Assembly: GCF_010119975.1 (NCBI RefSeq) | Contig: NZ_CP048222.1 | Location: 4,482,501-4,546,500 of the forward strand | Direction: 5' to 3' | Origin: Rhodocytophaga rosea | Lineage (GTDB): Bacteria > Bacteroidota > Bacteroidia > Cytophagales > 172606-1 | DNA length: 64,000 nucleotides | Shown here: positions 730 through 52,911 of the stretch, one piece after another | Layout of the letters: each line of letters opens with the position of its first letter | Numbering within the stretch: position 1 is the first letter of the stretch | The notes under the pieces: generated by a model | Told to the model about the DNA's origin: nothing | The model's input: only the letters and a program-made list of their open reading frames with translations | The model's database searches: none | Position numbers and translations under genes: made by a program

Positions 730-1617
730 TCACACTTTCAACTTCTTCACATTCTGGAAACTAATATTAATAGATTCCAGGGGTGGGCGTTTGCAAACAT
801 CCTGTTCTACAAAATAGTGTTTTAAACCGGCAGTTTTTGCGGCATCAAAAATCCGCTGAAAATCTATCGAACCAGTGCCTACTTCTGCGAAAGCGCGTTC
901 TGCTGTCTTTTCCATATCTTTTACATGCCACATAGGGAAACGTCCGGGGTGTTGCTTGAATAATTCAACCGGATCTTTTCCGGCAAAACTGATCCAGTAT
1001 AAATCTAATTCAATCTGCACCAGTTTAGGGTCAGTTTCTTTCAGAATCAGATCAAAAGGCATCTGGCCTTCAAGTTGTACAAATTCAAAATCGTGGTTGT
1101 GGTAACCAAATTGTAAGCCTGCTGCCTTGCATACCTCCGCCGATTTATTGAATAATTCTATATGATGTTTATAATCATCCAGTTTAGTACGTTCCTGCGG
1201 AAAGAGAAACGCACAAATCATATACTTTTGTCCTACTTCTGCGGCATCATCTACAGCCCGTTTCCAGTCGTCTTGCAGGGTGCCTTTGCTCTTCATCACA
1301 TTACCAGTCGTATAATGGCCACTAGGTGCTGTTAAATTCAGGCTTTTTAAAATATCACGGAATTCTTTTGGGCTTTTGCCAAAGTATTTTCCATCAGAAT
1401 AGCCAAACAATTCTACTTCACGATACCCAATATCCGCTACTTTTTTTAAAGTACCTTCCAGGTCTTTAGGTAATATTTCACGCAGAGTGTATAGCTGAAG
1501 GCCTACGTTTTTACTTGTTTTCCCAAATGCAGAAAAATCTGTAAGAAAGGTGCCTGCCAGGGCTAAGCTGCTCACCTTTAAAAATTGCTGCCGGGATATT
1601 TTTTCGGAGAATGACAT
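730..1617 (-). CDS. Sugar phosphate isomerase/epimerase-like TIM-barrel protein
   Basis: This 295-aa protein belongs to the AP-endonuclease-2-like (xylose isomerase-like) TIM-barrel family. Visible family blocks are 'EVELFG' near residue 68, 'GYHNHDFEF' near 170, 'ELDLYW', 'WHVKDM', 'EVGTGSIDF' and 'FVEQD'; their Glu, His and Asp residues normally bind the divalent metal. The N-terminus resembles a Tat signal (SRQQFLK followed by a hydrophobic stretch) but has only one of the two arginines, so export may be Sec or degenerate Tat. It lies downstream of the beta-propeller-azurin gene on the same strand, separated by a 252-bp gap holding a tandem repeat. The family acts on keto-sugars or inositol-type substrates; the exact substrate is unknown. 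Confidence 0.82.
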   Translation of the reverse strand: MSFSEKISRQQFLKVSSLALAGTFLTDFSAFGKTSKNVGLQLYTLREILPKDLEGTLKKVADIGYREVELFGYSDGKYFGKSPKEFRDILKSLNLTAPSGHYTTGNVMKSKGTLQDDWKRAVDDAAEVGQKYMICAFLFPQERTKLDDYKHHIELFNKSAEVCKAAGLQFGYHNHDFEFVQLEGQMPFDLILKETDPKLVQIELDLYWISFAGKDPVELFKQHPGRFPMWHVKDMEKTAERAFAEVGTGSIDFQRIFDAAKTAGLKHYFVEQDVCKRPPLESINISFQNVKKLKV

Positions 1618-1672: not shown

Positions 1673-1690
1673 AATTACTGAATTACTGAA
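1673..1690. repeat. Inverted partner of the 8-bp tandem array
   Basis: Two copies of the reverse-complement word (AATTACTG) lie 35 bp before the tandem array at 1726-1869. They can pair with any register of the array, giving a stem of about 18 bp. Confidence 0.6.
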
Positions 1691-1725
1691 TGATAGAAGG
1701 ATTGAGTAAATAAAAAATAATTATT

Positions 1726-1869
1726 GTAATTCAGTAATTCAGTAATTCAGTAATTCAGTAATTCAGTAATTCAGTAATTCAGTAATTCAGTAATTCAGTA
1801 ATTCAGTAATTCAGTAATTCAGTAATTCAGTAATTCAGTAATTCAGTAATTCAGTAATTCAGTAATTCA
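1726..1869. repeat. Perfect 8-bp tandem repeat, 18 copies
   Basis: The unit GTAATTCA is repeated exactly 18 times (144 bp) with no mismatch. The array ends one base before the stop codon of the beta-propeller-azurin gene. On that gene's strand the unit reads TGAATTAC, so the natural stop is followed at once by a second TGA. The period is not a multiple of three and there are no spacers, so this is neither a coding repeat nor a CRISPR array. Copy number could vary by replication slippage. Confidence 0.95.
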
Positions 1870-3999
1870 TCATTCCGTTACTTTTAAAATACCCTGCATA
1901 TTCATGTAGTGACCTGGGAAGGTGCACACATACATATAATCGCCAGGCTTGGAAGGAGCCACAAAGTAAATGGTTTCTGATGTTTGAGGTTGTAGCTGGG
2001 CAGTATGATAGAGCACTTTAGGAGTTTTTGGTATATAATCCATTTTAGCACCATCCAAGCCTAGTTTTACGGCCATTTCACCTACTGGTGTTGCTTCTCC
2101 CGGCAACGTTACTACAAAGTTATGCAACATATCATCGTTGTTGTTGAAGGTAAGCTTTACTTTGCTGCCTGCTTTCACAGTAATCTGTGACAATTCGAAT
2201 TTCAGTCCAGGTTTAGTACCCAGGGTGATGGTTTTGTCCGGTCCATTGGTCCAGTCGGCAGGCATAGTAATGATACGTTTGGCTTGTGTACCAGTAGTAG
2301 CTTTTCCGGTGGTAGAAGTTTTTACAGTAGTGCCTTTTTGAGATGCACTGGCACTTGCCGAATGATTGGCATGAGAAGCCTTCACCATCTGATCGTCTTT
2401 CAACACCAGCTTTTCTCCGGAAGGTAGGTAATTTAAGGTATAATACCCCACCGAATGTAGCAAAGGCTGTTTAGTCTGGTTGCGAAGCCCTTCTGCTTTC
2501 ACTTCATGGATATAGCCTTCTCTAATGCCATCTACCACCAGCCGAACTTTCATTCCATCTTCGGATACCACAATTCCCTTTAGCGTACAAGGTTTATTGT
2601 CAATAACCGGGCTACCATATTCCTGGCGGTACATATAGTTAAAACTGGTGAGGCCATACGAAGCAGCATCTTTGGCGGTAGCTTTATCAACCGGCTGGGT
2701 AAACTCAAGTTCAAAACCATCTGGCTGGGCTTTCATGGTCTTGATCTCAAACGGCATTTTACCGGTCCAAACCAGGCGTTGCAATCCATACTCATCTTTA
2801 CCGGTAGAAGCCCATCCCCGGCTGGTCATGCCCACAAACATAGATCCATCGTTGCCCCATACCATACGCAGTATACCTGACTGAAAACCTTCTTTAAATG
2901 GAAATACAGCGCCCTGGTATTCGCCGTTCACCTTTTCCATAAATACCCGCATAATTTTACTCTGTCCCTGATCTCCAACCAGTACCTGTCCGGTAAATGG
3001 ACCGAAAACGCCTGCCGTAGTATCCGCTAAGATAGCAGACGTGGAAATACCCAGAATACCTTGTGGAAACCATATAGCAGGTAGTTTTAGCTCTTTTACG
3101 GTTTTGGCTACTTCATACATAGGTTTGCCAGTGCTGGGCACATCTTCCGGACGAAGTTTAATATTCGACTCCGGCAGGTTAGACCATAGTAAACCAGATG
3201 GGTTTCCTACAAAATCACCGGGTTCTATGTGGGTCATGCGGCCAGAGCCTACCCAATCACCCTGGTTTTCGGAGTAGAAAACAGAACCATCGGGCAGAAA
3301 ATTAAATCCGGCTGGTGAACGCATGCCAGTAGCAACCGGGGTCATCTTGCCATCCGGTGCAATTTTCAGCATCCAGCCTCTCCATTTCGATAAGGAAGCT
3401 CCTTTACCAATCCAGGCCAGATTCAGCGTAATGAGCATGTCATTGTTTGGCATAACAACCGGGCCATAGGAATATTCATGATAGTTTCCGGATAATGGCC
3501 AGGAATAAATCACTTCATAATCATCGGCTCTGTCGTCGCCATTAGTATCACGCAACCTGGTGAGTTCGCTGCGCTGGGTCAGATAGAGCGAGTTATTATG
3601 GTAAGCCAGTCCTAAAGGTTCATGTAATCCTTGAGCAAAACGCTTGAAGTAGGGAATTCCCTGGTCACGCATATAGGGGTTTTCTATTAGCCATACATCT
3701 CCTTTCCGGGTAGAAACGGCCAGCCGACCATCGGGCATAGTAGCCAAACCACCTACTTCAAGCTCTACATTTTTGGGAATGGGTACGGTAATGATTTTGT
3801 AATACTCTTCCTCCTCTGCACCAGGTTTAGAACCTTGGGCTGCATTCTGGGCAAAGCTCAGCGTAGACGAAAGGAATAGCGTAGCAGCCAGTGTTATTTT
3901 TACAAATCGCCAGCTTTTAGACAAACATTCATTCACTATATTGACAGGAACAGCAGTATTTTTAGGGGAGATTGAATGGATATTCAAATATGTTTTCAT
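1870..3999 (-). CDS. Secreted PQQ-dehydrogenase-like beta-propeller fused to an azurin-like copper domain
   Basis: This 709-aa exported protein has a signal anchor near residues 30-50. Residues about 60-420 form a six-bladed propeller of the PQQ-dependent sugar dehydrogenase-like type, with Gly/Asp-rich blades such as 'RLRDTNGDDRADD' and 'GFNFLPDGSVFYSENQGD'. A domain of roughly 110 residues and a low-complexity Ser/Thr/Lys linker (about 560-590) lead to a C-terminal cupredoxin. That domain shows the azurin ligand set: His626, then Cys692, His697 and Met701 with the azurin spacing C-x4-H-x3-M. The gene starts 32 bp after the DUF1080 gene, so they are probably co-transcribed. Inference: a periplasmic or surface sugar oxidase that passes electrons to its own copper site. 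PQQ binding is not proven. Confidence 0.82.
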   Translation of the reverse strand: MKTYLNIHSISPKNTAVPVNIVNECLSKSWRFVKITLAATLFLSSTLSFAQNAAQGSKPGAEEEEYYKIITVPIPKNVELEVGGLATMPDGRLAVSTRKGDVWLIENPYMRDQGIPYFKRFAQGLHEPLGLAYHNNSLYLTQRSELTRLRDTNGDDRADDYEVIYSWPLSGNYHEYSYGPVVMPNNDMLITLNLAWIGKGASLSKWRGWMLKIAPDGKMTPVATGMRSPAGFNFLPDGSVFYSENQGDWVGSGRMTHIEPGDFVGNPSGLLWSNLPESNIKLRPEDVPSTGKPMYEVAKTVKELKLPAIWFPQGILGISTSAILADTTAGVFGPFTGQVLVGDQGQSKIMRVFMEKVNGEYQGAVFPFKEGFQSGILRMVWGNDGSMFVGMTSRGWASTGKDEYGLQRLVWTGKMPFEIKTMKAQPDGFELEFTQPVDKATAKDAASYGLTSFNYMYRQEYGSPVIDNKPCTLKGIVVSEDGMKVRLVVDGIREGYIHEVKAEGLRNQTKQPLLHSVGYYTLNYLPSGEKLVLKDDQMVKASHANHSASASASQKGTTVKTSTTGKATTGTQAKRIITMPADWTNGPDKTITLGTKPGLKFELSQITVKAGSKVKLTFNNNDDMLHNFVVTLPGEATPVGEMAVKLGLDGAKMDYIPKTPKVLYHTAQLQPQTSETIYFVAPSKPGDYMYVCTFPGHYMNMQGILKVTE

Positions 4000-29778: not shown

Positions 29779-29816
29779 ATAGTCCGCGGACCAAGTTACA
29801 GAATTACTGAGTTATA

Positions 29817-29868
29817 GAATTACTGAATGCTTTAACATAAATTCAGATTTTCTGTAATTCAGTAATTC
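29817..29868. repeat. Inverted repeat of the TAATTCAG word family
   Basis: The arms 29817-29828 and 29857-29868 are perfect 12-bp complements built from the same word as the 1726-1869 array. The right side (29850-29869) is identical over 20 bp to 50971-50990. It sits between the S41 protease and homogentisate dioxygenase genes and may act as a transcript-end hairpin. Confidence 0.75.
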
Positions 29869-29900
29869 TTTCATTTAGGGGACTTATAAACCCAATTGCT

Positions 29901-50908: not shown

Positions 50909-50970
50909 AATGAATGGGATAAATGGAAATAGAGCTACTGAAATGAACAGATTTACGATCTAAATAAACC

Positions 50971-50990
50971 TTCTGTAATTCAGTAATTCT
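50971..50990. repeat. Copy of the TAATTCAG intergenic word
   Basis: The 20 bases at 50971-50990 are identical to 29850-29869 and carry the word of the 18-copy array. They lie just downstream of the TetR stop codon, before the ABC1 kinase gene. Confidence 0.75.
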
Positions 50991-50995
50991 ATTGT

Positions 50996-51634
50996 TCAGT
51001 TTTTGCTTTGATAGAGGAATTTGGCGAAATCAAAAATGGAATCTAGGGGCGTACGGCCTAATAAGTCAAATGAGGTGTTCACTGCTTTTTCAATGGCTAC
51101 ATCCGTTTGTTCAAAGTTTTTACTCTGATCCTTAATCCAGAAGTTAAGTACAAACAGTGCCTGCATCCAGAAACCATCTGCATAACGGTTGCTCAAATAA
51201 GGGCGGTCTATGATTTCATCGGTAGTTCTGCCTTCACGGATCAATTCACCAGCAAATTCTTTGAAAGCATTCCGGAACGTGTATAGTTCTGTTGAGGCTG
51301 TGTGAAAACGGCGGCCTGGATATTTGTTGGCGGTGTATACCACAAAACTGCGGTTGTTTTTCAATACTTCAATCCAGGAGTAATAAAAGGAAAGCAGCTT
51401 TTCCCGGACAGAATACTGCATGTATACTTCCTGACTTTCTACTTTAACCCGGGTGGTTTCAAATAGTTCTCTCCACACTTCCTGCTCCAAGCCTTCAAAG
51501 GAATTAAAATGCTGATAAAACTCTTGTTCGCTGATGCCCAGATGTTTGGCAAAGGCAAAAACGGAAACTGGCTGGCGGCCATGTTCCAATACATATTCTA
51601 TATAGTGTTGCTGAATGTGTTCTTTGTTTTCCAT
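50996..51634 (-). CDS. TetR/AcrR family transcriptional regulator
   Basis: The 212-aa protein has an N-terminal helix-turn-helix ('SVFAFAKHLGISEQEFYQHF', about 22-41) and a long helical ligand domain, the TetR layout. It is followed in the same direction by the ABC1 kinase gene, which it may control. The ligand is unknown. No operator palindrome was recognised in its upstream region. Confidence 0.8.
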   Translation of the reverse strand: MENKEHIQQHYIEYVLEHGRQPVSVFAFAKHLGISEQEFYQHFNSFEGLEQEVWRELFETTRVKVESQEVYMQYSVREKLLSFYYSWIEVLKNNRSFVVYTANKYPGRRFHTASTELYTFRNAFKEFAGELIREGRTTDEIIDRPYLSNRYADGFWMQALFVLNFWIKDQSKNFEQTDVAIEKAVNTSFDLLGRTPLDSIFDFAKFLYQSKN

Positions 51635-52766: not shown

Positions 52767-52819
52767 ATACTTTTTTCTGCAAATTAGCTTTTTTCTCCGA
52801 ATCCGCTTATAGCGGGGTG

Positions 52820-52882
52820 ATTGAGCGAATGAGTAATTGAGTGACTATAGTTTATAGTCACTCAATTACTCATTCGCTCAAT
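52820..52882. repeat. Perfect 30-bp hairpin with a 3-nt loop
   Basis: The arms 52820-52849 and 52853-52882 pair without a mismatch around a GTT loop, and G-U or A-U pairs extend the base a little. It lies between the divergent starts of the RMD1-family gene and rpmH, so it is not a normal terminator. The words (ATTGAG, GAGTAATTGAGTGA) are stuttered, like the other intergenic repeats. Confidence 0.95.
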
Positions 52883-52911
52883 TACTTATTCACTATTTTT
52901 TTCTGACTGCC

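Follow-up and report, generated by a model that had tools for sequence, protein, structure and literature searches.

An exact octamer array behind a stop codon in Rhodocytophaga rosea is probably one of many grown on dispersed leader-plus-seed repeats

A tandem array that directly adjoins a stop codon, and whose 18 units are all identical, raises the question of whether it is an accident of a single locus or one member of a wider set, and of how it came to grow there. In the window analysed here, a 64,000-nt stretch of the Rhodocytophaga rosea chromosome, TRF places 18.0 copies of GTAATTCA at 1726-1869 (plus strand) with 100% matches and zero indels. The two-unit word GTAATTCAGTAATTCA occurs 17 times in the window, every time inside the array, and 0 times in 100 dinucleotide shuffles; the expected count of such an exact 18-unit array under the shuffle control is likewise 0. 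The last base of the array, 1869, adjoins the TGA (1872-1870) of a minus-strand gene, so that the description given in the first-pass annotation, of a clean 18-copy array touching a stop codon, was borne out. The inverted partner that it had placed nearby was also found, with AATTACTGAATTACTGAAT at 1673-1691 (plus strand) representing two inverted unit copies over 19 nt, 100% complementary to the array and 34 bp ahead of its first unit. The intervening positions (1692-1725, plus strand) hold a leader that, on alignment of 18 copies, is a diverged copy of a family core (consensus AGAAGGTCAGAATA) followed by AT-rich sequence. The gene whose TGA touches the array (1870-3999, minus strand, 709 aa) had been named propeller-azurin; a Pfam plastocyanin/azurin-type domain at its C-terminus upholds the azurin part of that name, and the remainder of the protein matches only DUF7133, leaving the propeller part without confirmation. 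The next co-directional gene (730-1617, minus strand, 295 aa), the start of which lies 108 bp from the array, matches the Pfam xylose-isomerase-like TIM barrel, in agreement with the isomerase proposed as its neighbor. An Rfam search of the window returned 0 matches at gathering score. Beyond the isomerase gene, a further hairpin (TCAGTAGTCATTA, 655-725; z -6.1) lies between the ends of two convergent genes.

The count of the unit across the genome that had been proposed at that stage revealed that the window array is not unique. The genome, a single contig of 8,983,451 bases, contains 34 arrays of at least three copies, all built on the heptamer GTAATTC and ranging from 3 to 20 copies. The heptamer occurs in three registers, separated by a spacer A (A-type, period 8, 16 arrays), by a spacer T (T-type, period 8, five arrays) or by no spacer (period 7, 13 arrays). 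At the level of unit pairs, genome-wide searches recovered 92 forward and 57 reverse A-type pairs (two consecutive GTAATTCA units), 22 forward and 22 reverse pairs with another spacer base, which was T in all 44 listed rows, and 43 forward and 78 reverse pairs without a spacer, against 0 in the reversed control for each of the three types. The stretches around these pairs were fetched, and the pair counts recovered in them equal the whole-genome counts. Four additional sites carry a single pair only, and in one array (at 5791841) a broken unit separates two runs. The unit contains one G and one C and is hence neither G-rich nor of the quadruplex type.

The arrays are preceded by recurrent leader sequences. 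A-type arrays typically follow a core resembling AGAAGGTCAGAATA and an AT-rich stretch that frequently closes in AATTCA, AATAAAGAAA or AATAAGCTTTTAAAGAAA is often found ahead of T-type and period-7 arrays, and GTAATTA follows 10 of the 13 period-7 arrays. A sequence model built from 18 aligned copies yielded 124 matches in the genome, merged by hand into 48 sites, which are only a lower bound because 150 of 8661 first-look candidates were scored. The window copy matches this family model with an E-value of 2.0e-15, being itself among the 18 source copies. Twenty-four of the 34 arrays lie on the 48 family sites, and 24 of these sites lack any array that reaches three copies; the remaining 10 arrays, all of period 7, have a different leader and fall outside the model matches. 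A common origin of the two leader types appears plausible, but a single common family is not proven, because the model misses these 10 arrays. Two further family members, both without an array, were identified in the window: a degenerate hairpin at 29793-29877 (G000:C1:4512295-4512377; no strand assigned) and a weakly scoring copy at 50936-51001 (minus strand; G000:C1:4533436-4533501; E 0.0016). The window also contains a near-perfect hairpin at 52817-52885, with 33-nt arms that are 97% complementary, a 3-nt loop and an RNA z of -14.7, whose arms are made up of the degenerate octamers GATTGAGC, GAATGAGT and AATTGAGT. Elsewhere in the genome, an array-less family copy at about G000:C1:7859253 (L201) is, as judged by eye, enclosed by a palindrome whose near-perfect ends measure about 22 bp (CCAACAAAAAGTTACTGAA) and which may be a small mobile element. 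Seven of the 34 arrays and, by hand count, nine of the 48 family sites are clustered in about 160 kb, less than 2% of the genome (G000:C1:6.87-7.03 Mb, L149-L156).

Gene positions were taken from a crude ORF caller. On this basis, spacers between co-directional genes hold 40 of the 48 family sites, divergent spacers five and convergent spacers two, and one site could not be assigned. Within the 40 co-directional spacers, the median distance of the element edge is 1 bp to the stop codon and 30.5 bp to the following start, and the stop is the closer of the two in 38 of them. The arrays themselves are distributed in the same manner (27 co-directional, four divergent, two convergent, one without assignment). 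For 15 of the 34, among them the window array, the far end lies no more than 10 bp from the stop codon of an opposing gene; 18 point toward the start of a gene in the same direction.

The distribution of these repeats outside R. rosea is narrow. A second species of the same genus (G001) has 0 matches for all three unit types, and the A-type pair is present in four of the 98 genomes searched, counting that of R. rosea. The family model matches once in G001 (E 0.008), four times in G002, a member of another genus of the same family, once in G003 and not at all in G005 and G006, the best outside match being one of those in G002 (1.2e-6). The separate assembly of G002 does contain period-7 GTAATTC arrays; its arrays (L281, L296-L299) have a recurring leader of their own, resembling AAAGGCMTTCAGGGAAAAA. 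The array set is thus either recent in this genome or lost elsewhere.

We looked up in relatives 12 gene pairs flanking an element, eight of which are adjacent in G001; the pairs at 1226052, 4962335 and 8651176 were not found adjacent there, and the pair at 5864272 was left out on account of paralogues. For the eight conserved pairs, the family model detected the element in 7/7 of the R. rosea loci searched (8 sites) and in 0/18 loci of G001, G003 and G005 at E-values up to 1. Compared with G001, four of the eight spacers are clearly longer in R. rosea, two are slightly longer and two are shorter. The clearly longer ones are those of TatD-asparaginase (225 bp, against 32 in G001 and 54 and 56 in other relatives), the PspA pair (135 against 83), ArgG-ArgC (111 against 72) and a fourth pair (139 against 70); Era-Der (203 against 193) is slightly longer, as is RpmF-PlsX (111 against 96, with 140 bp in a further relative without the element), and the shorter ones are the MnmA pair (86 against 94) and PheA-GyrA (131 against 218, with 182 bp in a further relative without the element). 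No target duplication or precise empty site was recognized in these spacers, which are too diverged to align. The absence of the element in G001 is therefore established at these loci; integration into a precise empty site is not. By eye, the orthologous RpmF-PlsX spacers of R. rosea, of G001 and of G003/G005 (L168, L214, L220, L224) each resemble a different, non-homologous hairpin. A G003/G005 hairpin was considered as a parallel repeat family and rejected, with 4 and 5 matches. For the azurin-isomerase pair of the window, four loci of about 5 kb each in relatives contained no isomerase match.

In other taxa, the A-type 24-mer occurs in 41 stretches. A horizontal origin of the exact octamer was rejected: AGAAGG is found within 150 nt before the array in two of the 41 (L035, L066), and no full leader was seen in the flanking sequence inspected. 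The nearest analogue for the strain variation suggested in the first-pass annotation is an unrelated site in Psychrobacter, where an array of GTAATTCA, taken as the same site on the basis of shared flanks, varies between four genomes: it has 5 copies in L070, 8 in L039, 8 in L041 and at least 10 in L051, the last being cut by a contig edge. The flanks are common to stretches L039, L041, L043, L051 and L070, and contig edges cut two of the copies. Long degenerate octamer arrays of the type GTAMYTCM are also seen in the unrelated group Ca. Kapaibacterium (L036, L040, L049, L050), and L040 has an inverted arm as well.

The orientation of the arrays follows the halves of the chromosome defined by GC skew, which generally marks the leading strand. 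Raw skew computed on sampled stretches is positive in 13/13 bins between 2.3 and 8.13 Mb and negative in 10/10 bins elsewhere, two of the latter (8.70-8.99 Mb) barely so. When skew is computed at four-fold sites and averaged between genes of the two strands, its sign matches that of raw skew in 19 of 23 bins and differs at 2.60-3.40, 7.56-7.76 and 8.70-8.99 Mb. These halves would correspond to the two replication arms; a search for rRNA operons, whose direction would have served as an independent indication of the arms, gave no match in this genome. Of the 16 A-type arrays, 15 lie on the skew-positive strand, compared with 2 of the 18 T-type and period-7 arrays taken together (Fisher p 2e-6, in a test framed after the orientations had been noticed). 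In binomial tests, the skew-positive strand carries CAG in 19/21 octamer arrays and GAATTAC in 12/13 period-7 arrays. With the boundary placed at 6.9 Mb instead, the direction pattern disappears (11 of 16 A-type arrays; 7 of 13 no-spacer arrays in the anti direction); the skew data favor the 8.13 Mb boundary over that at 6.9 Mb. Family copies without an array also lean to one side (7 pro, 17 anti), and the bias may for this reason stem from insertion rather than growth. Gene direction was rejected as its source, given that arrays occur both ways relative to genes, and so was strand-specific hairpin stability, given that, as DNA, each unit folds similarly on either strand. A similar look at G002 found all 24 pair matches on contig plus strands, with sampled stretches giving weakly negative skew for contigs C2, C7 and C8 and positive skew for C1.

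Together, these observations indicate that the window array is probably one of 34 that have grown on dispersed leader-plus-seed repeats, the seeds being lengthened by replication slippage. A copy of the repeat would consist of a short leader, in the A-type usually AGAAGGTCAGAATA and an AT-rich stretch, and of a small GTAATTC seed; such copies lie between genes, almost invariably right next to a stop codon. From seeds whose spacer is A, T or absent, slipped-strand replication would then have produced exact arrays of 3 to 20 units, and each array would keep one register because its seed was lengthened locally. Growth, retention or insertion would depend on direction relative to the GC-skew halves. 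Slippage, already suggested in the first-pass annotation, is well supported by the pattern of exact units, of copy numbers between 3 and 20 over 34 sites and of one array with a broken unit, and on the strength of the sequences is the likely growth step. The leader and seed appear to have been copied by some route, and the position behind stop codons seems to be tolerated rather than to reflect a dedicated function.

A different reading is that the elements are functional 3' hairpins, acting as terminators or mRNA stabilizers behind stop codons, and that the arrays are a side effect of one arm being kept long. The location of the elements directly after stop codons would suit such a role, and so would the window copy, which as plus-strand RNA has a z of -7.4 and in the comparison of the 48 family copies shows the lowest value of all (-8.6, with four others at or below -6); in total, 16 of the 48 reach a z of -3 or less and 27 a z of -2 or less, and the differing hairpins seen by eye in the RpmF-PlsX spacers of three genera point the same way. 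Thirty-two of the 48 copies, however, fall short of -3, RNAalifold found zero consensus pairs in 18 aligned copies, and the array without its flanks barely folds. The folding foreseen in the first-pass annotation hence holds for the window copy but not as a general rule, and its proposal that the array sets the mRNA 3' end is unsupported in the same general sense. Exact inverted partners, scanned on the leader side within 120 bp, are longer than 8 nt in eight of the 34 arrays, that of the window being the longest; in the other 26 the partner is at most 8 nt or there is none of at least 6 nt, as is the case for 8 of the 13 period-7 arrays. An inverted partner was accordingly rejected as the general driver of array growth and, with so few long ones among the arrays, is more likely a local extra than their engine. 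The occurrence of arrays in both directions relative to genes also speaks against a 3' function, as does the presence in the same genome of hairpins flanked by A- and T-tracts that look like ordinary terminators, and we regard functional 3' hairpins as distinctly unlikely.

It is also conceivable, if rather unlikely, that leader and array form a non-autonomous mobile element entering via single-stranded DNA at the replication fork, following the logic of REP or IS200-like elements. Such entry would account for insertion in a single direction within each half of the chromosome. The direction bias by array type, the copying of leaders to many sites and the absence from the same-genus species all fit this reading, and the genome does contain five matches to the Y1 transposase (PF01797). 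Yet in a test for a REP/RAYT-like arrangement, none of the three Y1 loci scanned (locus 2445066 was left out) was flanked by the repeat, showing isolated words and no element, and the consensus of 18 copies has no GTAG or CGTC end. Moreover, the two direction classes are oriented oppositely to each other, an outcome that a single insertion rule would not give. That the arrays are an artefact of assembly is very improbable indeed, in view of 34 separate arrays with differing lengths and shared leaders in a single-contig assembly, and of the recurrence of the period-7 unit in the separate assembly of another genus (G002).

Dispersed heptamer arrays are known from cyanobacteria as STRR repeats, and foldback elements carry inverted arms made of short tandem repeats. 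The window copy, with arms of short tandem units, resembles a foldback element; as a set the arrays differ, with an exact inverted partner longer than 8 nt on the leader side in 8 of 34. The closest known kind is found in the heptamer repeat families of Xanthomonas and Nostoc. As described in passages of a report on the former (PMC4692102), the GGGAATC repeats of Xanthomonas occur as numerous arrays of differing length dispersed over intergenic regions, for the most part between co-directional genes and on average 28 nt from the upstream ORF as against 160 nt from the downstream one, with inverted pairs at many sites; the genes next to prominent arrays are not the same in the sister species. 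The use of one heptamer in dispersed, variable-length intergenic arrays near the upstream ORF, without shared sites in sister species, is common to those repeats, as they appear in these passages, and to the ones analysed here. In Xanthomonas the unit is rich in G and forms quadruplexes, and no leading- or lagging-strand preference is reported (PMC4692102), whereas the unit in R. rosea is AT-rich and has three registers, a conserved leader and a strong direction bias; inverted pairs, frequent in Xanthomonas by this account, are represented here by partners of more than 8 nt on the scanned leader side of 8 of 34 arrays. The GGGGA(T/C)T repeats of Nostoc PCC 7120, also covered in those passages, are dispersed heptamer arrays with long exact examples (26 units); they differ from the arrays here in being G-rich, 68% intergenic and with few inverted pairs (PMC4692102). 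REP sequences, as presented in parts of another report (PMC3733652), are palindromes tagged with GTAG or CGTC that are intergenic, lie downstream of coding regions and sometimes supply a gene's stop codon. The elements here are like them in their position behind genes and unlike them in having no GTAG/CGTC tag or conserved stem and, at the three Y1 loci scanned, no associated transposase, and REP sequences, as presented there, are not 7-8 bp tandem arrays.

Bacterial repeats of 6-9 bp have rarely been reported, according to the abstract of the Xanthomonas report (PMC4692102), and among the matches listed in our literature search nothing relevant was found on the unit itself or on repeat families of the Cytophagales. 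In sections of a survey, the Bacteroidota are named as a bacterial phylum in which STR density across the genome is high; those sections are silent on 7-8 bp units, dispersed leaders and direction (PMC12699852). Given that, by this account, the phylum is rich in short tandem repeats, arrays as such are unsurprising; the surprising part is the shared heptamer, the leaders and the direction. A bolder reading, which we consider unlikely, is that of a leader-plus-heptamer element that spreads and grows according to replication direction, with expansions seeded right behind stop codons; if true, this would be a satellite-forming bacterial element in which the direction of the fork governs growth. 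In one genome, a single heptamer has undergone amplification at 34 sites and in three registers, with array direction tied to the chromosome half, and the same-genus species provides a clean negative. As many as 34 of these arrays are candidate loci for typing the species, and together they offer ready natural replicates for studying how the growth of tandem repeats in bacteria is started, limited and oriented.
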